Source of the DNA: Verrucomicrobiaceae bacterium
GTDB lineage: Bacteria; Verrucomicrobiota; Verrucomicrobiia; Verrucomicrobiales; Verrucomicrobiaceae
Assembly (NCBI GenBank): GCA_016795365.1
Contig: JAEUHN010000040.1
Span: 186,001-250,000 of the forward strand
Reading direction: 5' to 3'
Length of the DNA stretch: 64,000 nucleotides
How positions within the stretch are numbered: position 1 is the first letter of the stretch; every line of letters starts with the position of its first letter. A program made the translations under genes and the position numbers. Of this stretch, positions 2,864 to 27,011 are shown one piece after another. The notes beneath the pieces were generated by a model. That model saw nothing but the letters and a program-made list of their open reading frames with translations, did not search any database and was not told the DNA's origin.

Positions 2864-3541
2864 TCACGCCCCGTGATCACGCACCCACTGGCCGGCGCGA
2901 AGGTAGAGCTCGGCAGCGCTTCGTAGCTGGAGCTTCTCTTTGATTCGGGCTCGATAGGTTTCCACCGTGGACTCGCCAAGGTTCAGCGCCACGGCGATGT
3001 CATGGGTGCTTTTGCCACGACCCAGCAGCTGGAAGACTTCCAGCTCGCGATCGGCGAGCAGCGCGAGACCCTGGATGTCGGACGAGGAACGTTTCTGTGT
3101 CATGCGCTCCAGCAGGCGGGCCGTCATGCGCTTGCTCACATAGACCTCGCCGTTCATCACTTTGCGAATCGCTTTCACCACCTCGGATGAGGCTTCGTTC
3201 TTGGTGATGTAACCTTTGGCTCCGGCGCGCAGCGAGCGCTCGGCATACAGGTCCTCGTCATGCATGGAGAGAACGAGCACGGGGAGGTCGATACCCTGCG
3301 CCTTGATGTCCTTGAGCAGCTCAAGCCCGCTGGACCCTCGCAGGGTGATGTCCACGATGGCGATGTCGGGCTTCTGCTCGCGGATCAGCGTCATGGCATC
3401 CTTGATGTTGTCCGCCTCACCACAGACCTCCATGCCTAGGTCACGATTGATCAGCTGGCCGATGTGCTCACGAAACATCGGATGATCTTCGACCAGGGCC
3501 ACCTGGAAGCGTTTTCCGGAAGTGTTGCTATGCTGGGCCAT
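2864..3541 (-). CDS. NarL/FixJ-type response regulator
   Basis: A 225-residue two-domain regulator. The N-terminal receiver has the acidic pair in VEDH (residues 18-19), the phospho-acceptor D64 in AIVDITLRGSSG and the Thr/Ser-Lys switch region. The C-terminal LuxR-type helix-turn-helix contains LADRELEVFQLLGRGKST and ESTVETYRARIKEKL. Its start overlaps the end of the histidine kinase gene by 14 bases, so the two are translated from one message and form a pair. Its targets cannot be read from the sequence. Confidence 0.93.
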   Translation of the reverse strand: MAQHSNTSGKRFQVALVEDHPMFREHIGQLINRDLGMEVCGEADNIKDAMTLIREQKPDIAIVDITLRGSSGLELLKDIKAQGIDLPVLVLSMHDEDLYAERSLRAGAKGYITKNEASSEVVKAIRKVMNGEVYVSKRMTARLLERMTQKRSSSDIQGLALLADRELEVFQLLGRGKSTHDIAVALNLGESTVETYRARIKEKLQLRSAAELYLRAGQWVRDHGA

Positions 3542-4622
3542 AAAAAGTGGGTTCTGGAAGGTCGGGTTTCACTTTGAGCTGGCACACGACGACGGTCCCG
3601 CCAGCCACTCGGTTCTTGATGATAAGGTCGGCACCCAGAGCCTGAGCGCGGTAGCGCATGGTGCGCAATCCCATGCCTTCCCGAGGTGAGCGGCGGCTGG
3701 CTTCAATACCGCAGCCATTGTCTTCGATGCGTAGCTCGAGGATCCCCTCGTGAGCTTCCAGCGCAATCACAATCAATGTGGCTCCACTGTGGCGCACGGC
3801 ATTGGCGACGGCTTCCTGCGCGATGCGATAGAGGTGCATGGACACATCAGGGTCCGAGAGATGCACCTCCGCACCTTCCTTCACTTCAATGGGCACACCT
3901 GTGAGGCGGCTGGTGGTGTTGGCCAGTTCGCTGAGCGCTGTCGAGAGCCCACTGCGATCCACGTGCACCGGGAAGATGCCACGCGCGAGACTGCGGGCCT
4001 CGAGCACGGCCTGCTGAATGAGTTCCTCAATCTGGCTGGCGTCCTGGGCCTCGGGAAGGGCGCGTGCCTGAAGATCATCGGCCAGCGCACGCGCAGCGCA
4101 TCCGATGGCTGCCAGCTGCTGACACAGACCATCGTGAAGATCTTGACCGATGCGCTGCTGCTCATGCTCGCTCACCGAGACAAGGTCCTGCTCCAGCTGC
4201 CTTCGCTCTTCAAGCATCCGAATGTGCGCTGCATCTGCCTCCTGCTTGTTCCGAATCGCCGCCCCACCAATCGCGGCGAACGCGAAGTAAACAAAGCGGC
4301 TGAACATGGCGAGATTGTAGCCCAGCTGAGTTTGATAGGGGTTGCCCGCTTGATTGGCCACCCACCAGATCACCGCGCTCCAGCCGGCCAGCAATAACCC
4401 CGCATTCCTGCCCCGCCACCACACCGCCAGAAAGATGGGGAGAGCATACAACACAAACAAGCTCCACTCCCACCCCGTGAGGTAGTCGATCCACCCGATG
4501 GCAGCCGAAAGTCCGGGCAACACGATCGCCATCAACCAGACAGGCATGCGCCTCAGCGCCGCCTCAAGGCTGACCCGAGACGAAGGAGCATGAAAGGCCT
4601 TGGTTTCGGAATGGATGATCAT
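3528..4622 (-). CDS. Sensor histidine kinase (HisKA_3 family)
   Basis: A 364-residue membrane kinase. About four hydrophobic segments (residues about 28-125) form a small membrane sensor without an obvious large external domain. A short coiled coil leads to the dimerisation/phosphorylation motif QRIGQDLHDGLCQQL with the phospho-acceptor H163. The HATPase_c domain follows, with the N-box near AQEAVANAVRHS, DNGCGIE and GMGLRTMRYRA. This is the NarX/DesK-type kinase architecture that pairs with LuxR-type regulators, and the gene overlaps one directly. The signal is unknown. Confidence 0.92.
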   Translation of the reverse strand: MIIHSETKAFHAPSSRVSLEAALRRMPVWLMAIVLPGLSAAIGWIDYLTGWEWSLFVLYALPIFLAVWWRGRNAGLLLAGWSAVIWWVANQAGNPYQTQLGYNLAMFSRFVYFAFAAIGGAAIRNKQEADAAHIRMLEERRQLEQDLVSVSEHEQQRIGQDLHDGLCQQLAAIGCAARALADDLQARALPEAQDASQIEELIQQAVLEARSLARGIFPVHVDRSGLSTALSELANTTSRLTGVPIEVKEGAEVHLSDPDVSMHLYRIAQEAVANAVRHSGATLIVIALEAHEGILELRIEDNGCGIEASRRSPREGMGLRTMRYRAQALGADLIIKNRVAGGTVVVCQLKVKPDLPEPTFYGPA

Positions 4623-4663: not shown

Positions 4664-5428
4664 TTAGGTCGGAGCCAGCTCCCCGAGCGAGGCCTGCTCC
4701 GGCTGCACAGAGTCCGTGGACCCTGGCTTGCCGACAATGCCAAAAACGGAAGACCCAAAGGGCAGGTGCAACCAGCGGGCCATTGCTGCATCAACCCTGC
4801 CTGCGGAACAAAACACCGCATTCAGCCAGCGCGGCAAGGAGTGGAGGTCCGATGTTCCAGCACGTCCGCACCGACGCCTCACCAGCAGCGGCAGAAAGAG
4901 CCAAGCATTCCAGTAGTGAAGCATCTTGGGCTCAAGATTATGCCGTTCCAACAGATGTCGCACATGACTCACCGTGTAGCGCCTGGCACCACAAACCCGG
5001 TCATCGTGCCCGCCTCGCAAACAGTCAAATGCAGGCTCATTAAACACCAGTCTGCCCCCTGGGCGAAGCACCCGCGCCATCTCGTTCAGCGCCAGACTGT
5101 CGTCCACCATCTCGTGGTAAAGCACGTTGAGACAAGTGACCACATCAAAGGACTCGTCGGCAAACGGAAGGTCATGCACGGAGGCCGCTTGCACCGAAGA
5201 CAACCCACGACCCCGGCAATGACTGATCGCATGAGCCGAGACATCGATTCCCTGCGCTTTCACGCGGTTCATCTTTGAGAGCAACCCACCCGTGCCGCAA
5301 CCAACGTCAAGCAAGTTCGCATCCTGCGGAACGTGCTCCAGCTCCCTTAGCACCAGCCAATGCAACACATCATACCACCAGTGACTGTTTTCAAAGGTTC
5401 GGAGGAGGTCGTGTTCATCAGGTGGCAT
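4664..5428 (-). CDS. SAM-dependent class I methyltransferase
   Basis: A Rossmann-fold methyltransferase of about 254 residues. The SAM-binding motif I is LLDVGCGTGGLL, followed by an acidic motif II (GIDVSAHAISHC) and a post-motif FDVVTCLNVLYHEMVDD. The C-terminal part HMLERH-like region and a hydrophobic patch (WLFLPLLVRRR) resemble Methyltransf_11/UbiE-like enzymes that act on lipids or sugars. I chose the ATG at 5428 (MPPDEHDLLRTFENSHWWYD), where family-like sequence begins. The frame stays open up to an ATG at 5494. The substrate is unknown. It lies 41 bases downstream of the kinase/regulator pair's promoter side and faces the same way. Confidence 0.82.
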   Translation of the reverse strand: MPPDEHDLLRTFENSHWWYDVLHWLVLRELEHVPQDANLLDVGCGTGGLLSKMNRVKAQGIDVSAHAISHCRGRGLSSVQAASVHDLPFADESFDVVTCLNVLYHEMVDDSLALNEMARVLRPGGRLVFNEPAFDCLRGGHDDRVCGARRYTVSHVRHLLERHNLEPKMLHYWNAWLFLPLLVRRRCGRAGTSDLHSLPRWLNAVFCSAGRVDAAMARWLHLPFGSSVFGIVGKPGSTDSVQPEQASLGELAPT

Positions 5429-5560
5429 CCGTTTTAAGGTAGCGGTTGTGCCCCGCCTCGCCATGCCAATCGCTTGTGGTGCCAACTGCCACAACGATAC
5501 CCAGGCACCTGCTCACAAGCGCAAGTGGCAGCATGGATGCGGTGAAGGTGACAGCCGTTG

Positions 5561-6328
5561 TCACTTCGTTTTGATCGTCGGCAGCTTCTCGGGATCGAAC
5601 CAGTCGGCAGGACTGCGCCCGGCCTTCATCTCGCTCAAGGTGATGTCTTCGATGTCACCGTGGTTGTCGATGCGCAGCCCGGTGGCGCGTCGGGCACCGA
5701 GCACGGTTTCGTAGCGAGTGAAAAGCACCTGGCGGAAGACCCGGCGGCTGGCGGTGTAATGCTCGGCTTTCCATGGATGCCCGGCGTCGTCGATCCAGCA
5801 GCGGACCAGTGGCGAGCGGTTCTTCACACCGGGTTTGGGCGTGAAGTCCAACACCGTGCATGGATGCGCAGAACCCGCGGCTGTCACGGATTCCCGACCT
5901 GCGAGCGTATGATCGAAGTCATCGGTGAACCGCCAGTTCATGAGGTCCGCGACGAGCGCTTGCGAGGCGACCTGTTGTGCGGGCATGCGTGAGGCGCGCT
6001 TCGCTCGCGGGTCGAAGAACCAGCACGCGTCGCCCACGAAGAGGATCATCTTGCCCGCATCGCGCGCCGGCTCATCGCAGACCACCAGTGTATCGAGCAC
6101 GACGCGGCCATTGGCTTCCACCCGACGATGCGAATACTGCCGGAACGTCGCGGTCTCGCTCGTCGAGGCGCCGGCCTTGGTCTTCTGCACGGTGACGCGG
6201 GCGGTGAAATCTTCGGGCGGCACGCGCATCGCGTCGAGCTTCTGCACCAGCGACACATGCGTGTTCGGCGTCTGGGCTGAAGCCGTCAGCACCCAAAGAA
6301 GAACAAAGATAGGCACGAGTGACTTCAT
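5561..6328 (-). CDS. Outer-membrane lipoprotein-sorting (LolA-like) protein, cassette 1
   Basis: A 255-residue exported protein. The signal peptide is MKSLVPIFVLLWVLTASAQ. The mature part has alternating beta-strand character with the pattern CWFFDPRAKRASRMPAQQV followed by a segment around FTDDFDHTL, like the LolA_like family annotated as outer-membrane lipoprotein-sorting proteins. The ATG at 6328 was chosen because the signal peptide begins there, although the frame is open further upstream. It starts 5 bases after the permease gene ends and completes an ATPase-permease-carrier set. It probably carries a lipid or lipoprotein across the periplasm, but the cargo is unknown. A second, diverged copy of the same set lies at 22320-24963. 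Confidence 0.75.
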   Translation of the reverse strand: MKSLVPIFVLLWVLTASAQTPNTHVSLVQKLDAMRVPPEDFTARVTVQKTKAGASTSETATFRQYSHRRVEANGRVVLDTLVVCDEPARDAGKMILFVGDACWFFDPRAKRASRMPAQQVASQALVADLMNWRFTDDFDHTLAGRESVTAAGSAHPCTVLDFTPKPGVKNRSPLVRCWIDDAGHPWKAEHYTASRRVFRQVLFTRYETVLGARRATGLRIDNHGDIEDITLSEMKAGRSPADWFDPEKLPTIKTK

Positions 6329-6333
6329 GAGGA

Positions 6334-7632
6334 TCAATGGCGAAGGGCCTCCGCGATCTCCAGGCGGCTGGCTCGACGTGCAGGGAACAACGCGCCGATG
6401 ACGGCGACGCAGAAGCTGCTCAGGAAACTGCCCGTCACGATCATGGGAGAGTGCAGACAGGCCACCTCCAGCTTGGCCTGCACATTGAAATAAGGCGGCG
6501 TGTAGAGAATCATCGAGTGGTTCACCGCCCACGCGGTCACAAGGCCCGCAACGATGCCCGCACATCCGCCCAGGAGGCCGAGCACGATGCCTTCCTGCAC
6601 GAACATGGTCACGATACCGGCACGGGTGACGCCCATCGCGCGCATCGCGCCGATCTCGCGCGTGCGCTCGACGATGCCCATCATCATCGTGTTGTAGATC
6701 GTGAACACGAGCACCACGGCCACGATGCAGAAGGCGAAGGCAAAGAACATGTTCACCATCGAGAGCGAGCGTGCGTGATTCGGGTTCAACTCCCAGCAAT
6801 CGCGGTGCTCCCATTCGAGGTGGTGCTCGCGAGCGAGTTCATCGATGCGCTGCTCGACCAGCGGTAGATCCTCGGTGCTCTTGAGCAGCAGTTGCACCGA
6901 CGTGACGTGCAACGGCTCACCAGGGAACAGCAGACCACTCGCCATCTCGATGGGCATGACGACGAGATGATTGTCGAGTTCCTCCATCGCGCGAATGCTT
7001 GTCTGCCTGACGGTGCCGGAGACCATGTTGGGCAGGCCGCCGGAGGGCGGCAGGGCCGTGAGTTCCAGCGAAGGCCGGGCGCTGCCGTTCACGCCGAGCA
7101 CCCGCGCGAGACCTTCCCCGATGGTGATGCCATCCGGATCGCTGGCATCGAGTTCCGGTTCCCGCGCAAAGAGATGGCGGTTGGCCGGGATGTGCCGCGC
7201 CTCGGTCAGGCCATACGGATTCCAGTAAATGATGCGCTCGATCTCACCGGGGAAGGCACCCATGCCAGCGAACGTAGCCGTCGTTTGTTGTTCGGCGCTG
7301 GTGACGATGCCGCTGACCACCAGCCTGCCGGTGATAAGGTCGATTCGCGGGCCGATCACCGGGTCGCCAAGGAGCATCTTCTTGATCTCATCGTAACCCG
7401 TCAGCGCATACGCAGCGGGATTGCCCGAGCCTTTAGCCTGATAGCCCGCCTTGAAGATCTGCAGGTGCCCGGACAGCACCACGGCATGAACTTCAGCAGC
7501 GAGATGAGCCCAGGTGATGTAGCCGCCGAACAACATCAGACCCGCGCACGACAACGCGATGGCCAGCATCGTGGACACGCTGCGGCGGGCATTACGCCAC
7601 ACATTGCGGAAAGCCAGACTCCAGGCGGTCAT
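6334..7632 (-). CDS. FtsX/LolE-type ABC transporter permease, cassette 1
   Basis: A 432-residue inner-membrane protein. One N-terminal transmembrane helix (residues about 18-40, MLAIALSCAGLMLFGGYI) is followed by a large periplasmic domain of about 240 residues, then three C-terminal helices. The cytoplasmic loop ERTREIGAMRAMGVTRAGI is the coupling-helix signature of the MacB/LolCE/FtsX fold. Its start overlaps the ATPase gene by 4 bases. With the ATPase and the LolA-like protein it forms a complete extraction-type ABC system (type VII), which pulls substrates out of the inner membrane without transporting them through it. Confidence 0.9.
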   Translation of the reverse strand: MTAWSLAFRNVWRNARRSVSTMLAIALSCAGLMLFGGYITWAHLAAEVHAVVLSGHLQIFKAGYQAKGSGNPAAYALTGYDEIKKMLLGDPVIGPRIDLITGRLVVSGIVTSAEQQTTATFAGMGAFPGEIERIIYWNPYGLTEARHIPANRHLFAREPELDASDPDGITIGEGLARVLGVNGSARPSLELTALPPSGGLPNMVSGTVRQTSIRAMEELDNHLVVMPIEMASGLLFPGEPLHVTSVQLLLKSTEDLPLVEQRIDELAREHHLEWEHRDCWELNPNHARSLSMVNMFFAFAFCIVAVVLVFTIYNTMMMGIVERTREIGAMRAMGVTRAGIVTMFVQEGIVLGLLGGCAGIVAGLVTAWAVNHSMILYTPPYFNVQAKLEVACLHSPMIVTGSFLSSFCVAVIGALFPARRASRLEIAEALRH

Positions 7633-8321
7633 GTGTCGGTGAGGAGTCCATCACGCATGAGCAGCCGGCGCTCGGCGAGCGCGGCGACCTGCGGATCATG
7701 AGTTGAAATGACAAACGTGGTGCCCAGGCGGTCACGCATCTCGCGCATGAGTTCGATGATCTTCGCGCCCGTCGTGGAGTCGAGATTGGCTGTCGGTTCG
7801 TCGGCAATCACCAGCGCTGGATGGGTGACCAGCGCGCGACCGACGGCGACCCGCTGGCACTGACCGCCGGACAATTCGGCGGGCCGTTGATGCGCCTCCG
7901 CTCCCAAGCCCAGTGAGTCTAGCATCTCCAGTGCGCGTGCTCTCGCCTCCGTCACTGACACACCATTGAGGCGAAGCGGATACTCGATGTTCTCCGCGGC
8001 GGTAAGCACGGGGATGAGATTGAAATTTTGAAACACGAAGCCCAGCTTTCGCGCGCGAAACCGCGAGAGGCTGGCGTCGGCCAGCGTGCCCACATCTTCG
8101 CCCGCGACCATGACGCTGCCGGTGGTGGGATGATCGATGCAGCCAATCAGATTGAGCAGTGTCGTTTTGCCCGAGCCCGAGGGTCCTTGCATCACCACAA
8201 ACGCACCACCGGCAATTTCCACCGTGACTCCGCGCAGGGCCTGCACAGTGCGATGCCCGAGTGGGTAGTCTTTGGTGGCGGCGATGACGCGCACGAGCGG
8301 CGGTGGCGAGGGATCTGGCAT
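7629..8321 (-). CDS. ABC transporter ATP-binding protein (LolD/MacB-like), cassette 1
   Basis: A 230-residue ATPase. Walker A is GPSGSGKTTLL, the Q-loop lies in GFVFQNFNLIPVLTAAEN, the signature is LSGGQCQRVAVGRAL and Walker B is LVIADEPTANLD followed by the H-loop STHDPQ. The start at 8321 (MPDPSPPPLVRV) gives the usual family length. A longer frame reaches 8450. It energises the FtsX-type permease that follows with a 4-base overlap. The gene is divergent from the carotenoid pair, and the 69-base gap between them must hold both promoters. Confidence 0.93.
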   Translation of the reverse strand: MPDPSPPPLVRVIAATKDYPLGHRTVQALRGVTVEIAGGAFVVMQGPSGSGKTTLLNLIGCIDHPTTGSVMVAGEDVGTLADASLSRFRARKLGFVFQNFNLIPVLTAAENIEYPLRLNGVSVTEARARALEMLDSLGLGAEAHQRPAELSGGQCQRVAVGRALVTHPALVIADEPTANLDSTTGAKIIELMREMRDRLGTTFVISTHDPQVAALAERRLLMRDGLLTDT

Positions 8322-8390
8322 GTAGGCGTGGCGGCCAGCATAGGAGTATCGGCAGCGAATGCAATGCACACGCTGGAACTCTGGTTGCAC

Positions 8391-9251
8391 ATGGCATGGA
8401 TGCTTTTCACCATGCGACGAATGAACGGACCCATGCCGCGCCACTCCCAAGACTCGCCGAAGCGCGGCGTTTCCATGGTGATTCTGCCACTGGCTTTTGT
8501 GTGGCTGCTTGGGGTGCCGTTTGTGTCGCAGGCAAGCCTGGGATCGGGCTGGCTGGTGACCGGAGAAGCCGTCCTCGTGGGCAGTTTGATCCTCACCGCC
8601 ACCAATCTCTGGTATGCATCACTGGAAGTGTCACGGCGCGATGCGTGGCGATTGTTTCTGCTCGCGTTTGGCATCGGCTGGGCAGCGGAGGCGTGCGGTG
8701 TGCATACCGGTGTGCCGTTTGGCAGTCGCTACGTTTACCACGCCGCGTTTCAGCCGCACTTGTCCGGCGGAGTTCCTTTGGCGATCCCGCTGTCGTGGTA
8801 TGTGCTGGTGCGGCTGCCGGTGGTGCTGCTGCGTCGGCACACGTGGAGTCTCACCACACGGTCGCTGCTGTGCGGCCTGTTCATGGCAGGAACGGCGCTG
8901 CTCCTGGACCCGCTCGGCCAGTCCATCGGGCTATGGCACTTTGCGATCGAAGACGGCGCCCGCCTGCAAGTGCTGAACGCTCTGGGCTGGGGTGCTGTGA
9001 CCACGCTGATCACAGCTGCATATTTCCACCTCGGTCGCTCGGATCAGCTGGAGGCTCGGCCGATCGACGAGCGCCTGGAGTCGCTGCTGCTCACGATGTC
9101 CGCCGCCTTCCACGCGCTGGCGATCGTGGCCGCCGCCAACCGGTTCGGCAATGCCTGGCCGCTGATCGCTTCCACCGTGCTCATGCTGCCGTGCTGGTGG
9201 GTGTGGTGGCGCGGGCGAATTGCCCTTGTCGTTCCGAGTAAATGTCGCTGA
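8391..9251 (+). CDS. Carotenoid biosynthesis membrane protein (CruF/DUF422-like)
   Basis: A polytopic protein of about 286 residues with roughly seven hydrophobic segments. The motifs EACGVHTGVPFGSRY and LLLDPLGQSIGLWHF are typical of the DUF422 family, which includes the bacterial carotenoid hydratase CruF. A role in modifying an acyclic carotenoid end group at the membrane is likely but not proven. Several in-frame ATGs exist (8391, 8400, 8412, 8421, 8475) with no clear ribosome-binding site, so the start is uncertain and the core begins at 8475. Its stop overlaps the next membrane gene by 10 bases, which suggests coupled translation. Confidence 0.75.
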   Translation: MAWMLFTMRRMNGPMPRHSQDSPKRGVSMVILPLAFVWLLGVPFVSQASLGSGWLVTGEAVLVGSLILTATNLWYASLEVSRRDAWRLFLLAFGIGWAAEACGVHTGVPFGSRYVYHAAFQPHLSGGVPLAIPLSWYVLVRLPVVLLRRHTWSLTTRSLLCGLFMAGTALLLDPLGQSIGLWHFAIEDGARLQVLNALGWGAVTTLITAAYFHLGRSDQLEARPIDERLESLLLTMSAAFHALAIVAAANRFGNAWPLIASTVLMLPCWWVWWRGRIALVVPSKCR

Positions 9252-9961
9252 CTCTCACCATGCCTGACTATGCCTACATGTCTGGAGCGCTGTTCTGGCT
9301 AGCGGTGTGGGCATTGTTGTTCGCCATCCTGAAAAAGCAGCGCACGACCATGGTCGTCGTGGGTGCCCTCCTGTCGGTAGCGGGACCTGTTTCCGAATAC
9401 TGGTCGCTCCGCGATTACTGGCACCCTGGCTACCTGTGTCCCTTCATCGTCGGGGGCATTCACTTCGGTGGCTTGGAAGACCTGATCCTGACCTTTGCTC
9501 TCGCGGGAGGCTGCGCGGGAGTGTTTGAAGCCGTCGCCACACGACTTGGATGGGAGCCGCTGCCACCGCTTCACTGGCGCACGGTCGTCCGGGTATGGCT
9601 GCTGGGACTGTGCGGCATCGCAGGTTTCTTCCTGCTGACCGCCGTGACCACGTGGAACTCGATCCATGTGCTGCTCGCAACCGTCACCGTAGTAGCGGTC
9701 GTTATGCAGACGGTGCAGCCCTCGTGCGCGCGACTCACGCTGGCGCTCTCGCTCGCCGCAGGAGTGGCTTATCAGTTGTTCTACGTGCTGATCTTTGTGC
9801 CGCTCTACCCAGGGGTGTTTGAAGCGTGGTGGAACCTGTCCGCCACGTGGCCGATCCGATGGGCTGGCGTGCCGCTCGAGGAGACGGCCTGGGCCGCCGT
9901 GACCATGGCGTTTGCCGGACCGCTGCTGCGAGTGTGCTCGCGAAACAGGTCGTCGGAATGA
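9242..9961 (+). CDS. Polytopic membrane protein, lycopene-cyclase-domain-like
   Basis: A 239-residue protein of seven or so hydrophobic helices. It contains HFGGLEDLILTFALAGG in the first half and VPLEETAWAAVTMAF near the end. Paired acidic ED/EE motifs in transmembrane context are characteristic of the heterodimeric CrtYc/CrtYd lycopene-cyclase domain. The 10-base overlap with the CruF-like gene supports a carotenoid role. The identification rests on motif resemblance only, so a cyclase, elongase partner or unrelated carotenoid membrane protein are all possible. No phytoene synthase or desaturase is visible nearby. Confidence 0.55.
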   Translation: MSLTLTMPDYAYMSGALFWLAVWALLFAILKKQRTTMVVVGALLSVAGPVSEYWSLRDYWHPGYLCPFIVGGIHFGGLEDLILTFALAGGCAGVFEAVATRLGWEPLPPLHWRTVVRVWLLGLCGIAGFFLLTAVTTWNSIHVLLATVTVVAVVMQTVQPSCARLTLALSLAAGVAYQLFYVLIFVPLYPGVFEAWWNLSATWPIRWAGVPLEETAWAAVTMAFAGPLLRVCSRNRSSE

Positions 9962-10060: not shown

Positions 10061-11881
10061 ATGCCCGAAGCCAGCCCACCGACCTACACCCAGCGCGAAC
10101 TGCTGCGCCGATTGTCGGCGATGGCGTGGAAGCACCGGAGTGGATGCCTCACCTTGATCGCCCAGCAATCATCGCTGGTGCTGCTGTCGCTCGCAGGCTT
10201 GGGCGGCATTGGCTTGGGCATCGACTACGTGCGGCATGTGCTGGAGCACACGGACACCGCGCCGGGATTCCCGTTCGGCTGGCAGCCACCGACCTCATGG
10301 AAGCCGATGCAGGTGCTCGCGGTGCTGAGCGCGTGGGTGTTCGGTGTCGCGATGCTGCGTGCATGGCTGAGCTATCGAGCCGCACTCACGAACTCGCGTC
10401 TCGGCCAGGGCAGGATCGTCGTCGGCCTGCGCAGTGAGGTGTATGCCAAGATGCAGCGCCTGAGCTTTCGGTTCTTCGATGCCAACACAACAGGGCCGCT
10501 GATCAATCGCGTCACCGGCGATACGCAGGCCGTGCGCTTGTTCCTCGACGGCGTGGTGGTGCAGAGCGTGAACACGCTGCTCGCCTTCGCCTTCTACCTC
10601 GTGTGCCTGCTACGCATTCATCCGGGGCTCACGCTCGCGTGCCTGCTGCCGCTACCGTTCGTGTGGCTCACGGTGATCATCTTTTCCGGCTGGCTGCGCC
10701 GCGACTACAATGCGAACCGCGACCTCGTGGACAAGCTGGTGCTCACCTTCGAGGAACTCATGCGCGGCATCAGCATCGTGAAGGCGTTCGCGCTCGAGCC
10801 GTGGGCGACGCAGCGCTTCGACGAAGCCAACGACGCCGTGCGCGTGCAGAAGCGCGGCATCTTCTTCAAGCTTTCGTTGCTGCACCCGCTCGTGGGCTTG
10901 CTCAATCATCTGAGCATGGCCGTGCTGCTCGGTTACGGCGGCTGGCTCGCGATTCAGGGCCGCATTCCACTCGGCACCGGCCTGGTCGTGTTCGCGGGCG
11001 TGCTGCAGCAGCTCGCGGCGCAGGTCAATGCGATCGCGGGCATCGCGGACAATCTGCAGCAGACGCTCGCCGGCGCGCAGCGCGTGTTCGAGATCATCGA
11101 CACGCAGCCCGAGGTGCGCGATGCACCAAACGCCGCATCGCTCAATCGTGCGCGTGGTGAACTCGCCTTCGAGAACGTGAGCTTCGCCTTCAAGGAGAAC
11201 AACACCGTGCTGCACGACATCAACTTCGCGGTGAAGTCCGGCGAACGCATCGCGATCGTAGGCCCCACGGGCGCAGGCAAGAGCGCGCTCATCCATTTGA
11301 TCCCGCGGTTCTACGATCCTGATGCCGGCTGTGTGCGACTCGATGGACGCGACTTGTGCGAGTGGAAGCTGGAGGATGTGCGCAAGCAGGTGGGACTCGT
11401 GTTTCAGGAGAGCTTCCTCTTCAGCGCCAGCGTGGCGGCGAACATCGCCTTCGGCAAACCAGATGCCACGCGCGAGCAGATCGAGCGCGCGGCCCGACTC
11501 GCTGCCGCGCATGAGTTCATCGAACGCCTGCCGCAGGGCTACGACTCGCTCGTGCAGGAGAACGGCAGCAACTTCTCCGGCGGACAACGGCAACGCCTCG
11601 CGCTGGCTCGCGCGCTGATCCTTGATCCCGCGATCCTCATTCTCGATGACCCGACCGCCGCCGTGGACACCGAAACCGAAGCTGAGATCCTCCGAGCGCT
11701 CGACTCCGCGATGAAGGGCCGCACCTGCTTCCTCATCGCGCATCGGCTCGGGGCCGTGAAGTATGCCGATCGCATCGTGGTGCTCGATCAAGGCCGCATC
11801 GTAGCGACCGGCACACACGAGGAACTCAGCGCGCGCGAAGGCTACTACCGCGATGCCTTGCTGGCTCAGTCCGTGGGGTAG
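10061..11881 (+). CDS. MsbA-like ABC exporter half-transporter
   Basis: A 606-residue fusion of a six-helix exporter domain (residues about 25-330) and a nucleotide-binding domain. Walker A is GPTGAGKSAL, the Q-loop is in GLVFQESFLFSASV, the signature is NFSGGQRQRLALARAL and Walker B is ILILDDPTAAVD. Such proteins dimerise and flip lipid A precursors, lipids or drugs. The residue after Walker B is D530 where an ATP-hydrolysing glutamate is usual, a change known from the weak site of heterodimeric exporters. No partner half-transporter lies next to it. The gene stands alone, 99 bases after the carotenoid pair. Confidence 0.9.
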   Translation: MPEASPPTYTQRELLRRLSAMAWKHRSGCLTLIAQQSSLVLLSLAGLGGIGLGIDYVRHVLEHTDTAPGFPFGWQPPTSWKPMQVLAVLSAWVFGVAMLRAWLSYRAALTNSRLGQGRIVVGLRSEVYAKMQRLSFRFFDANTTGPLINRVTGDTQAVRLFLDGVVVQSVNTLLAFAFYLVCLLRIHPGLTLACLLPLPFVWLTVIIFSGWLRRDYNANRDLVDKLVLTFEELMRGISIVKAFALEPWATQRFDEANDAVRVQKRGIFFKLSLLHPLVGLLNHLSMAVLLGYGGWLAIQGRIPLGTGLVVFAGVLQQLAAQVNAIAGIADNLQQTLAGAQRVFEIIDTQPEVRDAPNAASLNRARGELAFENVSFAFKENNTVLHDINFAVKSGERIAIVGPTGAGKSALIHLIPRFYDPDAGCVRLDGRDLCEWKLEDVRKQVGLVFQESFLFSASVAANIAFGKPDATREQIERAARLAAAHEFIERLPQGYDSLVQENGSNFSGGQRQRLALARALILDPAILILDDPTAAVDTETEAEILRALDSAMKGRTCFLIAHRLGAVKYADRIVVLDQGRIVATGTHEELSAREGYYRDALLAQSVG

Positions 11882-22319: not shown

Positions 22320-23099
22320 TTACTTCGCAGGAGAGGCGGTAGCCTCAATGGCCGCATCGCTGAAGTCGGCATCGGTGAAATCTTGTTCGCTGGAGCTGGA
22401 CCCCGCGATTCTTGTCTGCGTGCCTTTGGCGGGTGTGCTGACGGTGAAGGTCCGGGGGCACCAGTAGCCGCTGGGCAAGCGGATGACTTCCTCAGCTTCC
22501 ACAACGCGCGAAGGCTGATCACCGCCATCGAAGAGCTGCACGCGCCAGGCGATGTAGCGCTTCTCATCCACCCAGGTCTTCACTTTGCTAGGGCTGGTGC
22601 CAGCCTTGGGAGGTGTGGACTCGATGATCATGCACTGGCCGCTGCGGACTTTTTCTTTGCCGATGGCTTCATGTTTCGACCAGTCGAGGAATTCGGCGAG
22701 CGCATCTTCCAGAGTCATGTCGGTGCCGAAAATGGGCGTGCGTTTGTCCGTGGCGGAGAGCGTCTTGAAGCCCTGGCCGGGTGTGAAGGTGCGGGCCGTG
22801 AAGGCCGACCCGCGCTTGGTCCGAAGCAGCAGCGCCTCGCCCTTTCGTTCCTTCGGAAAGGTGATCTGGAAGAGCTGCTCGGTGGCACCGTCGGCTGTCT
22901 CGCGGCGTTTGATTTGAGCGAGGATCACCTGCTTCCCATCAGGTTTTGTTTGTTCCATGCGCACTCGCACCAGCAGGCCGCCTTTGGGCTTGGCTGCCTT
23001 GACCGTGGCGATTAATTCCGGCGCGCTCCAAGTGCGGGTTTCCTCCGCTTGAACAGAGATCACGAGCGCGGTGACAAGGAGTGCAATGAAGCGAGCCAT
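22320..23099 (-). CDS. Outer-membrane lipoprotein-sorting (LolA-like) protein, cassette 2
   Basis: A 259-residue exported protein. The signal peptide is MARFIALLVTALVISVQA. Beta-rich segments such as LLVRVRMEQTKPDGKQVI, FTARTFTPGQGFKTL and IFGTDMTLEDALAEFLDW resemble LolA_like outer-membrane lipoprotein-sorting proteins. The start at 23099 marks the signal peptide, although the frame is open upstream into the permease gene. It is 20 bases downstream of the permease. It is diverged in sequence from the cassette 1 protein at 5561-6328 but occupies the same place in the gene order. Its cargo is unknown. Confidence 0.75.
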   Translation of the reverse strand: MARFIALLVTALVISVQAEETRTWSAPELIATVKAAKPKGGLLVRVRMEQTKPDGKQVILAQIKRRETADGATEQLFQITFPKERKGEALLLRTKRGSAFTARTFTPGQGFKTLSATDKRTPIFGTDMTLEDALAEFLDWSKHEAIGKEKVRSGQCMIIESTPPKAGTSPSKVKTWVDEKRYIAWRVQLFDGGDQPSRVVEAEEVIRLPSGYWCPRTFTVSTPAKGTQTRIAGSSSSEQDFTDADFSDAAIEATASPAK

Positions 23100-24226: not shown

Positions 24227-24963
24227 CAGGCTACGGACTCCACAGGGTGGTGAGAAGGTTCATCGGACACGACCAAGCCATCCCGCATGGTGATGATGCG
24301 ATCTGCGGCGCGGGCCACGTGCATGTCGTGCGTGACGAGGACCATGGTCATGCCCTTTTCGCGATGCACACGCTGGAGCAATTCCATGATCTGATGGGAA
24401 TTGCGGCTGTCGAGATTGCCGGTGGGCTCGTCCGCCAGGAGGATATGCGGGTCATTGCCCAGACTGCGAGCGATGGCCACACGCTGACGCTCGCCACCCG
24501 AGAGCTTGCTGGGCAAATGATCGAGCCGGTGCTCCATGCCCACGGCCTGGAGCAGTTCGCGCGCCTTGCGCTGGCGCTCGCCCACAGACCAGCCCATCTC
24601 AAACATGGGCACCTGGACATTTTCCAAGGCTGTCAGAGTGGGCAAAAGATGGAAGGCCTGGAAGATGAAACCAATGTTGTGCGACCGAAACGCAGCGGGG
24701 TCCTTGAGCTTGGTGATGGGCTCGCCTTTGAAAAGGATCTCCCCCTGATCGGCGGTGTCCAGAGTGCCAAGCAGGCTGAGCAGGGTGGACTTGCCACTGC
24801 CGCTGCTGCCGATGATGGCCACAAACTCGCCTTCACGAATCGTGAGCGTCACGCCCCGCAGCGCGAGAACATGACCGCCATCGAAATCGCGATGCACGTT
24901 CACCACCTCCAGCAGCGCAGGCTTGGATTGATTGGCAGGTGAAGTGGTTTCGGGCAGAGGCAT
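24226..24963 (-). CDS. ABC transporter ATP-binding protein (LolD/MacB-like), cassette 2
   Basis: A 245-residue ATPase. Walker A is GSSGSGKSTLLSLLG, the Q-loop lies in GFIFQAFHLLPTLTALEN, the signature is LSGGERQRVAIARSL and Walker B is ILLADEPTGNLDS, followed by THDMHVARAADR. All catalytic residues are intact. It is the first gene of cassette 2 and is transcribed away from the acyltransferase gene. The 197-base gap to that gene shows no convincing promoter to my eye. Confidence 0.93.
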   Translation of the reverse strand: MPLPETTSPANQSKPALLEVVNVHRDFDGGHVLALRGVTLTIREGEFVAIIGSSGSGKSTLLSLLGTLDTADQGEILFKGEPITKLKDPAAFRSHNIGFIFQAFHLLPTLTALENVQVPMFEMGWSVGERQRKARELLQAVGMEHRLDHLPSKLSGGERQRVAIARSLGNDPHILLADEPTGNLDSRNSHQIMELLQRVHREKGMTMVLVTHDMHVARAADRIITMRDGLVVSDEPSHHPVESVA

Positions 24964-25160
24964 GGGAGGAACAGTCGAATCTGACAGTTTCGAAAGTCAC
25001 AAGGCTCGCGCAAGCTCAACCTTTGCGACTGCGAACGGTCCGGGTTGACGAACAAAGCGGTTGCACTCACATCTGGCTCGCCACAATCGGGCGCTCTGCC
25101 CGGCTGTCGGGCCAGCGCGAATGAACGCTCGTCGGTGATCGCGCCTCCTACTCCCTCCCA

Positions 25161-27011
25161 GTGAATTCAGATCCTCTCCAGTCACGCAAGCATCCACCTC
25201 TGATCGACCTGAACGCCGTCGATTTGCCAGCGATCAAGCCGGTGCTGAAGTTGCTCGGCCCCACGCTGAGCCGCTGGCTGAAGTTTGACGAGCTGAATGC
25301 GGTTCACGATCAGGTCATCGAGACCGCATCAGCCGAGAACTTTTTCTCCCGCACGCTTCAGCTCCTGGGAGCGAGCTACGAGGTCGCGCAATCAGACCTG
25401 GACCGTATCCCTGCCAGCGGACCTGTGGTCATCGTTGCCAACCATCCCCTGGGCGGCCTCGACGGCATCATCCTTGGCGATCTCCTCCATCGGCGGCGGA
25501 AAGACACGAAGCTGATGGCTAATTTCCTCCTGAAGCGGGTGAAGCACGCGGATCAACACATGTTCTTCGTGGACCCGTTCCCACGTCCCGAAGCTGTGCG
25601 CGCTAACCTCTCGGGCCTGCGGGACTGCCTCAAGCATCTTAAAGGCGGCGGCTTGCTGGGAGTGTTTCCCGGCAACCGCGTTTCGCATTGGCAGTGGGAT
25701 CGGCGGCAGGTGTGCGACCCTGATTGGGTGGCCAATGTGGGCTCTCTGATTCGTCGAGCGGAGGCCACCGTGGTGCCAATTTTTATCGAAGGCGGCAACA
25801 GCTTGCTCTTCAATCTCGCAGGCCTTGTGCATCCACTGCTACGCACGTCACTGCTGGCGCGAGAGCTGATCCGCCAGGCTCACGACCCCGAACCTGTGCA
25901 GTTGCACGTGGGCACTCCGATCTCGTATTCAAGGCTCAAACGCTTCGAGAAGGACGAGGACCTCGTGGCCTTCCTTCGCCTCGCCACCTATGTGCTGAGC
26001 AATCGCCCGGACGACGCGACCCCCGAGAAGCTCGCCGTCGTGGCGCAAGCGCAAGAACCAGAGCCTGTGGCCACTCCGTTGCCGCCAGAGCTTCTGGAGG
26101 CCGACATCGCAGCGCTGCCGCCGGAAGCCAGACTCTTCACTCAGGGCGACTTCGACGTTTACATCGCACGCTACCAGCAACTGCCTCACATCATGCAGGA
26201 GATCGGACGTGGACGCGAAGTCAGCTTCCGTGCGGCTGGCGGCGGCACGCTCAAGGCCCTCGACCTCGCTCCACAGGACGAATACTACCACCACATGTTC
26301 CTGTGGAATCGGAAGCAGAGCGCATTGGTAGGTGCCTATCGATTGGGCATGTCCGACGAGATCCTGGCCAAATATGGACCCGAGGGACTTATCTGCAGCG
26401 GGCTGTTCGAGTTGAAGCCCAAGTTTCTCGCCGAATTGAATCCGGGCATCGAGCTTGGGCGATCGTATGTGCTCCCTGAATGGCAACGAAACTACAATTC
26501 ACTGGTGCTGCTCTGGGCAGGCATTTTTTCGTTCGTCGCCAGGGAGCCGCGCTACCGCATCATGTTCGGAAGTGTCGGGATCAGTCAGGGCGACGAATAC
26601 ACCGCGGCCTCGCGGACCCTGATCGTCAACTACATGCGTGAGCACCTGAGCCATCCCACGCTAGCAGTTCATGTGGAACCACGCAGCCCGTTCGAAGGGA
26701 TCAAGCTCAGCGGCATGAAGCCCGAGGAAATCAGCAGCCTGGTGCAGAGTGTGGAGGACGTGAGCACGCTCGTAACCGGACTGGAGCAAGACGGCAAGGG
26801 CGTTCCCGTGTTGATCAAGCACTACGTGCGGATGAATGCCAAGCTGATCAGCTTCGGTGTCTGGAAGAACCACAGCAACGCCGTTGTGAGTTTCATTGTC
26901 ACCGATCTGACCACGTCCGACCCGAAGTTCCTCCGCCGATACATGGGTGCCGAGGCGTATGAACGATTCATGGCCTACCATGGTGCTCAGGAGCCCTCGT
27001 CGTCGGACTAG
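25161..27011 (+). CDS. Fused acyltransferase: PlsC-like plus OlsB/GNAT-like domains (OlsF-like)
   Basis: A 616-residue two-domain protein from a GTG start. Residues about 60-290 form an acylglycerophosphate acyltransferase-like domain with NHPLGGLDG (H95 to D101) and FPGNRVSHW. Residues about 350-560 form an ornithine N-acyltransferase-like GNAT domain (FDVYIARYQQLPHIMQEIG, YHHMFLWNRKQSALVGAYR, ELGRSYVLPEWQ). This order matches OlsF, a bifunctional enzyme that makes ornithine lipids by N-acylating then O-acylating ornithine. The product here could instead be another acylated amino acid. It stands alone with no neighbour to refine substrate. Confidence 0.83.
   Translation: MNSDPLQSRKHPPLIDLNAVDLPAIKPVLKLLGPTLSRWLKFDELNAVHDQVIETASAENFFSRTLQLLGASYEVAQSDLDRIPASGPVVIVANHPLGGLDGIILGDLLHRRRKDTKLMANFLLKRVKHADQHMFFVDPFPRPEAVRANLSGLRDCLKHLKGGGLLGVFPGNRVSHWQWDRRQVCDPDWVANVGSLIRRAEATVVPIFIEGGNSLLFNLAGLVHPLLRTSLLARELIRQAHDPEPVQLHVGTPISYSRLKRFEKDEDLVAFLRLATYVLSNRPDDATPEKLAVVAQAQEPEPVATPLPPELLEADIAALPPEARLFTQGDFDVYIARYQQLPHIMQEIGRGREVSFRAAGGGTLKALDLAPQDEYYHHMFLWNRKQSALVGAYRLGMSDEILAKYGPEGLICSGLFELKPKFLAELNPGIELGRSYVLPEWQRNYNSLVLLWAGIFSFVAREPRYRIMFGSVGISQGDEYTAASRTLIVNYMREHLSHPTLAVHVEPRSPFEGIKLSGMKPEEISSLVQSVEDVSTLVTGLEQDGKGVPVLIKHYVRMNAKLISFGVWKNHSNAVVSFIVTDLTTSDPKFLRRYMGAEAYERFMAYHGAQEPSSSD

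Follow-up and report, generated by a model that had tools for sequence, protein, structure and literature searches.

A LolD-like ATPase, an FtsX-type permease and a LolA_like carrier beside carotenoid-type genes: a candidate export line for a hydrophobic product in a Verrucomicrobiaceae bacterium

Background

The Lol pathway of Escherichia coli sorts lipoproteins, and the gene of its carrier lies apart from those of its transporter (lolA at 937,372; lolCDE at 1,175,427-1,178,564); recruitment of LolA depends on the Hook of LolC (residues 167-179), which is essential for it (PMC10865981). In Borrelia, the genes BBJ26-BBJ27-BBJ28, included in the BBJ23-29 cluster, encode an ATPase, a permease and a carrier, for which a non-polar ligand has been proposed (PMC13078400). 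LolA paralogs are also found in pigment loci, i.e. LolA2/LolB2 for flexirubin (PMC11885536) and ApeL for aryl polyenes (PMC8253772). The LolA3 protein of P. gingivalis (PDB 9tp6) binds LolB weakly and is thought to be separate in function (PMC13103446), and deletion of lolA3 in F. johnsoniae gave no phenotype (PMC11885536). For Verrucomicrobiota, it has been reported that LolB is missing (PMC10260701). In this work we analyzed a stretch of 64,000 nucleotides (hereafter the window) of a Verrucomicrobiaceae genome, G000, in which a LolD-like ABC ATPase, an FtsX-type permease and a secreted LolA_like carrier are encoded together (cassette 1, 8321-5561, minus strand), and a second cassette of the same order is present (cassette 2, 24963-22320, minus strand).

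To our knowledge, little is known of how neutral or isoprenoid lipids, carotenoids among them, get to the Gram-negative outer membrane. From our analysis we regard it as an evenly balanced question whether cassette 1 serves as an accessory line, of a Lol-like type, for the export of a single hydrophobic and lipid-like product. Here this product would most likely be a terpenoid; it may be a carotenoid derivative, the work of the CruF-like and lycopene-cyclase-like proteins that are encoded divergently next to the cassette.

Results

Cassette 1 comprises, in the order of transcription, the ATPase P0003 (7629..8321, minus strand, 230 aa; PF00005, 2.3e-29), the permease P0002 (6334..7632, minus strand, 432 aa; PF02687, 2e-18) and the carrier P0001 (5561..6328, minus strand, 255 aa; PF17131, 6.7e-19). 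The ATPase and permease genes overlap by 4 bases (ATGA), the carrier gene follows after a gap of 5 bases, and the start codons of the three genes are consistent with those of relatives. A preliminary description of this DNA had given the same coordinates, frames, overlap and gap, all of which are correct, as is its statement that LolA is encoded apart from LolCDE in E. coli; the ATPase-permease-LolA_like triad at 5561-8321 is real. The Walker A (GPSGSGKTT), signature (LSGGQ) and Walker B/D-loop (DEPTANLD) motifs of P0003 are intact. In NCBIfam the best matches are LolD for P0003 (TIGR02211, 215 bits; equivalog cut-off 308) and lolCE for P0002 (TIGR02212, 81 bits; cut-off 362), both far under the equivalog cut-offs. 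The orthologs of P0003 in the loci L060, L062, L063 and L065 range from 84 to 66%, and those of P0002 from 78 to 45%.

As read from its sequence, P0001 carries a Sec-type leader without a lipobox; its sole Pfam match is PF17131, and it does not qualify as a PF03548 LolA. Its structure model (pLDDT 84.7) resembles most closely the PDB entries 4z48 (Z 24.2), 3bk5 (23.4), 9tp6 (23.0) and 3buu (21.9), with 216-223 residues aligned at 2.3-2.9 A, all of them from the PF17131/DUF1329 group, and the next neighbours are LolA and LolB (Z 10-13; true LolA 11-13). A sequence-profile search against the PDB retrieved 3buu (5e-28), 4z48 (6e-8) and 3bk5 (1e-7), and 9tp6 at merely 0.16. The model thus predicts a LolA-type fold, nearest to the PF17131 group and then to true LolA, which agrees with the relationship to lipid carriers on which the preliminary description depended.

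P0002 has one large periplasmic loop and four predicted transmembrane helices (15-54, 284-317, 337-373 and 396-420 in the model, where the loop is of low confidence), and a profile search against the PDB retrieved YtrF, LolF, LolC, MacB and LolE. The cassette-1 permeases come together in a single clade (100/100) of the maximum-likelihood trees, outside LolC/LolE and MacB; the root of these trees is arbitrary, the shared clade has 19 rows, and the Borrelia and Klebsiella sequences are not included. The LolC and LolE proteins of E. coli group with another permease of G000 (contig C22, about 77.6-79.0 kb) with support of 100/99. At the site of the Hook, the residues between the flanking strands number 25-26 in the cassette-1 permeases, 31 in LolC, 30 in LolE, 20 in MacB and 16 in cassette 2; this loop, together with a GG(L/M)xN motif that is kept in the eight closest permeases, is compatible with a short Hook, at a site where the model is poor. 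The trees of permease and carrier differ in one point, the grouping of the L060 carrier with the lone carrier of genome G008; their agreement is otherwise complete and indicates that the parts travel together.

Close orthologs of the carrier (>50% identity) occur in three of the 68 genomes of the GTDB family (G000, G008 and G023), and a distant triad is present in G010; in the same genus one other genome was searched, which has neither a carrier nor a permease ortholog. Draws from the phylum and class yielded few further cassette-1 permeases (G188, G440, G181, G504 and G678), the 83 genomes of the G504 family gave one, and a contig scan of genomes added L060, L062 and L065, which belong to G448, G449 and G450, respectively. 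This scattered occurrence indicates that cassette 1 is accessory and not the housekeeping Lol pathway, and it has probably spread by transfer. The preliminary description would have been weakened by a lack of conserved gene order in relatives; of the 12 Verrucomicrobiota loci read, 11 retain the succession of ATPase, permease and LolA_like genes (the window, L060, L062, L063, L064, L065, L129, L130, L131, L140 and L141, the last with the permease and carrier alone seen, since the gene caller did not call the ATPase), which is far beyond chance. The exception is G008, where the LolA_like gene (L055 7770-8528) lies on another contig than its ATPase/permease pair; this carrier is the one closest to that of L060, a kinship that hints at carrier exchange. 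G000 encodes a third PF17131 protein (L015 5771-6502, contig C7); the start of the following gene resembles that of a protein kinase, and none of the neighbours seen is an ABC gene.

Divergent from the ATPase gene lies a gene for a CruF-like carotenoid biosynthesis membrane protein (8475..9251, plus strand, start uncertain; PF04240, 75 bits, cut-off 25), and next to it one for a lycopene-cyclase-like membrane protein with a GVPLEE motif (9242..9961, plus strand; PF18916, 24.9 bits, or 28.9 in the genome search, cut-off 27). A carotenoid enzyme adjoins the cassette, therefore, by PF04240 and marginally by PF18916. The frame 8303-9241 (plus strand), considered as the first carotenoid gene, has no Pfam match and is the wrong frame, the true gene being 8475-9251. 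A 60% ortholog of the CruF-like gene is found at the equivalent place in L060. In five of the 12 genomes searched there is one PF04240 gene each (G000, G448, G008 and the distant G451 and G452); among the first three, whose positions were compared, this gene diverges from the ATPase gene of the cassette in G000 and G448 and lies elsewhere in G008. G000 and G450 each contain one PF18916 match, which adjoins the cassette in both genomes, on opposite sides, and the one of G008 lies elsewhere. Within about 6 kb of the cassette in L065 (G450) there are a gene for a CrtC-like lipocalin hydratase fused to a polyprenyl diphosphate synthase (7069-9057) and a divergent squalene-cyclase-like neighbour; in L062 (G449) the end of a squalene-cyclase-like gene lies immediately before the ATPase, and the only PF00494 synthase of this genome is on contig C496, as is the squalene-cyclase match. 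Terpene genes adjoin the cassette, in sum, in three further genomes (G448, G449 and G450). A rough estimate of finding this linkage by chance is 1e-6 for four of eight genomes, 1e-5 for PF18916 alone, and 4e-5 when the related G000 and G448 are merged (three of seven independent genomes), values that overstate the case because the categories were chosen after the window had been seen and weak matches could be counted only approximately.

Beyond the carotenoid-type pair, an MsbA-like ABC exporter is encoded at 10061..11881 (plus strand; TIGR02203, 421 bits, cut-off 602). The preliminary description had taken it as a hint of a lipid or pigment cargo; we count it as context only, and no counterpart was found in the loci compared. 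Downstream of cassette 1 there are genes for a SAM-dependent methyltransferase (4664..5494, minus strand; PF08241, 4.7e-21), for which no counterpart was found beside other cassettes, and for a LuxR-type response regulator and a histidine kinase that form a two-component pair (2864-4622, minus strand). The lone LolA_like gene of G008 was considered as a neighbour of carotenoid desaturases and rejected, since the adjacent flavin enzymes best match PRK07208/PRK07233 and not CrtI.

Outside the phylum, we read eight proteobacterial plasmid loci from different organisms, and all of them have the ATPase, the permease and the carrier, the latter annotated as an outer membrane lipoprotein-sorting protein save in Klebsiella, where the copy is annotated in broken, unnamed pieces. 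An additional gene separates the ATPase from the permease in Rahnella, Enterobacter and Klebsiella. Six of the eight loci (on plasmids of Paraburkholderia, Aliiroseovarius, Rahnella, Enterobacter, Klebsiella and E. coli) also contain ketosynthases, acyl carrier protein or related enzymes; three enterobacterial loci of the fatty-acid-synthase (FAS) type are one family and not independent. The Vibrio and Plesiomonas loci contain instead a histidine kinase and a LytTR regulator, without biosynthesis genes. In the plasmid loci the carrier is followed by a protein without an assigned family, and many relatives have such a fourth gene, without a match in Pfam, after that of the carrier (L131 4387-5589, L130 1-513, L129 11706-13019 and L163-L169). 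The fourth proteins are only partly related to each other and have about 400-480 aa in the proteobacterial modules; several carry a leader and a terminal F/Y, so that their sequences are compatible with outer-membrane barrels. The full length of P0002 aligns with permeases of Borreliella plasmids (23% identity, E 5e-18).

Cassette 2 encodes a LolD-like ATPase, P0006 (24226..24963, minus strand; PF00005, 1.5e-36; TIGR02211, 242 bits, below the cut-off), a MacB-type FtsX permease, P0005 (23120..24226, minus strand; MacB_PCD PF12704, 1.5e-24, and PF02687), and a LolA_like carrier (22320..23099, minus strand; PF17131, 2.7e-22). The two cassettes had been described as parallel: their gene order is indeed identical, but the permeases belong to different lineages, that of cassette 2 grouping with MacB (97/95). 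In the trees the cassettes are clearly split, the arbitrary root notwithstanding, which shows that they are not copies of each other; a recent duplication is ruled out by the trees and by the length of the periplasmic loop. A gene for an OlsF-like ornithine/glycine-lipid synthase (25161..27011, plus strand; NF052615 OlsF, 318 bits over the full length, cut-off 620) is divergent from cassette 2 (intergenic region 24963-25161), and in G062 (L058 149-5427) genes for polyketide KR/ER/ACP, condensation and fatty-acid desaturase functions precede a cassette-2 relative, so that the cargo of cassette 2 may likewise be a lipid product.

Discussion

The data behind a dedicated export line are the gene order and its conservation, the carrier fold, the permease clade and the genomic linkage; from these we infer the stoichiometry, the direction, the docking, the cargo and the acceptor. 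A pair of permease subunits and a pair of ATPase subunits would assemble into a type VII ABC extractor, in which ATP binding would press the product from the outer leaflet of the inner membrane. The carrier would then dock on the periplasmic loop, receive the acyl or isoprenoid part in its groove, and ferry the product across the periplasm to an outer-membrane acceptor that is not encoded at the locus. By analogy with LolCDE, the parts would most simply be read as a LolDF-like dimer that extracts the product and passes it to the carrier, and the cargo is deduced from the biosynthetic clusters in relatives and the carotenoid and terpene genes here. The idea of a self-contained, probably dedicated line put forward in the preliminary description holds insofar as the order is conserved, the set is rare and scattered, the permease lies outside LolC/LolE and relatives reside in biosynthetic clusters; the set itself is not unusual, considering Borrelia BBJ26-28 and LolA3, a relative of the carrier with a solved structure.

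If cassette 1 were instead a second lipoprotein-sorting line, it would extract a subset of lipoproteins that the LolA_like carrier brings to the outer membrane. The LolD and lolCE best matches, the LolA-like fold of the carrier and a loop at the Hook site longer than that of MacB would fit this. So would the state of the housekeeping carrier in G000: the sole PF03548 LolA has flexirubin LolA2 as its nearest relative and AMP ligase and flavin-enzyme genes as its neighbours, so that no housekeeping carrier was identified. This LolA2-like locus (L014 5296-10854; C22, about 153-159 kb) resembles an aryl-polyene/flexirubin cluster. We nevertheless hold lipoprotein sorting to be rather unlikely, in view of a permease outside the clade that unites LolC, LolE and the LolC/E-type permease of G000 on C22, of close orthologs missing from most relatives, even from the same-genus genome, of relatives that reside in metabolite clusters, of the weak LolB binding of P. 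gingivalis LolA3, a structural relative in the PF17131 group, and of the lack of a phenotype on deletion of lolA3 in F. johnsoniae. A general exporter of lipids or for envelope stress, with several substrates and terpene neighbours by coincidence, is unlikely. It could explain the widely varied contexts, with no terpene link in G008, G023, G504 and G188, the two-component systems without biosynthesis genes in Vibrio and Plesiomonas, and the kinase/regulator pair downstream in the window; it does not account for CruF-like and lycopene-cyclase-like genes that are the sole ones of their genomes and adjoin the cassette in unrelated genomes, nor for the repeated residence of relatives in biosynthetic clusters. 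MacB-like efflux of drugs or peptides, or mechanotransmission, with the LolA_like protein as an accessory sensor, would draw on the fold common to the FtsX/MacB superfamily and on LolA-fold sensors such as RseB/MucB, and is very improbable, since the genes seen next to cassette 1 include neither a membrane-fusion protein nor a TolC-like one, its permease does not group with MacB, and carrier and permease are inherited together.

Several observations weigh against an export line dedicated to a terpenoid. The CruF-like protein scores 62 bits against TIGR03460 CruF (cut-off 155), and the PF18916 match of its neighbour is marginal. A full carotenoid cluster around cassette 1 was looked for and not found, with no phytoene synthase nearby, and the carotenoid backbone genes of G000 (PF00494) are on other contigs. 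No terpene gene lies within 5 kb of the cassette in G008, G023 and G504, and G188 has no match to PF04240, PF18916, PF13243 or PF00494; the contig of G010 is too short for a comparison of flanks. The linkage shared by G000 and G448 may reflect common ancestry, and the terpene category is post hoc. Neither a fourth gene nor an Omp85 gene, a possible outer-membrane partner, is found beside the cassette in the window, L060, L062, L063 and L065. The carotenoid linkage noted in the preliminary description holds in part: it is real here, is matched by related terpene genes in three further genomes and is absent from others, and it lends support to a lipid or pigment product as the candidate cargo.

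A broader proposal, which we advance tentatively and with clearly less than even confidence, is that cassette 1 and its barrel-less clade are a terpenoid-dedicated line (carotenoid- or hopanoid-like), and that LolD-FtsX-LolA_like cassettes are a modular, cargo-specific class which lies beside its own synthases and moves hydrophobic metabolites to the outer membrane, including cassette 2 with its OlsF-like synthase. If this is true, the name 'outer membrane lipoprotein-sorting protein', which annotation routinely gives to LolA_like proteins, would often stand for a metabolite carrier. A compact line with its own soluble carrier, beside the sole CruF-like and lycopene-cyclase-like genes of the genome, makes a route for lipids to the outer membrane directly testable.

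Among known systems, LolCDE-LolA of E. coli shares with cassette 1 a LolD-like ATPase, an FtsX permease and a LolA-fold carrier, and differs in its heterodimeric LolC/LolE of another clade, in a PF03548 LolA encoded apart, in the LolB acceptor and in the lipoprotein cargo; cassette 1 falls outside it by permease clade, by the LolD equivalog cut-off and by the family of its carrier. MacAB-TolC has the FtsX/MacB permease fold in common with cassette 1, but consists of a fused ATPase-permease, the MacA adaptor and the TolC duct, without a LolA-fold carrier, whereas here the ATPase and permease genes are separate and no adaptor is found among the neighbours of cassette 1. The flexirubin LolA2/LolB2 and ApeL proteins are likewise LolA-fold carriers in pigment loci, with proposed roles in pigment transport (PMC11885536, PMC8253772); they are named LolA homologs proper, their pigments are polyketide-like and not isoprenoid, and the partner in the aryl polyene system is an RND transporter. 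In the literature we found no direct precedent for LolA in carotenoid or polyketide export. The proteobacterial four-gene modules have a permease of the same clade (100/100), the ATPase and a PF17131 carrier, and differ by the fourth gene and the ketosynthases, in contrast with the carotenoid genes and the lack of a fourth gene at the locus in the window. Borrelia BBJ26-28 has the same order and a single MacB/LolE-like permease, a proposed homodimer; its cluster also includes an Omp85 barrel, a pair of TPR proteins and BBJ29, with no terpene genes described (PMC13078400). Of the traits of such a PF17131-coupled ABC export line, cassette 1 has the gene order and the shared permease clade and lacks the linked outer-membrane partner. 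The ATPase-permease-carrier kind is therefore already known from Borrelia, though uncharacterised experimentally, and the terpene-linked, barrel-less subclade is a variant of it.

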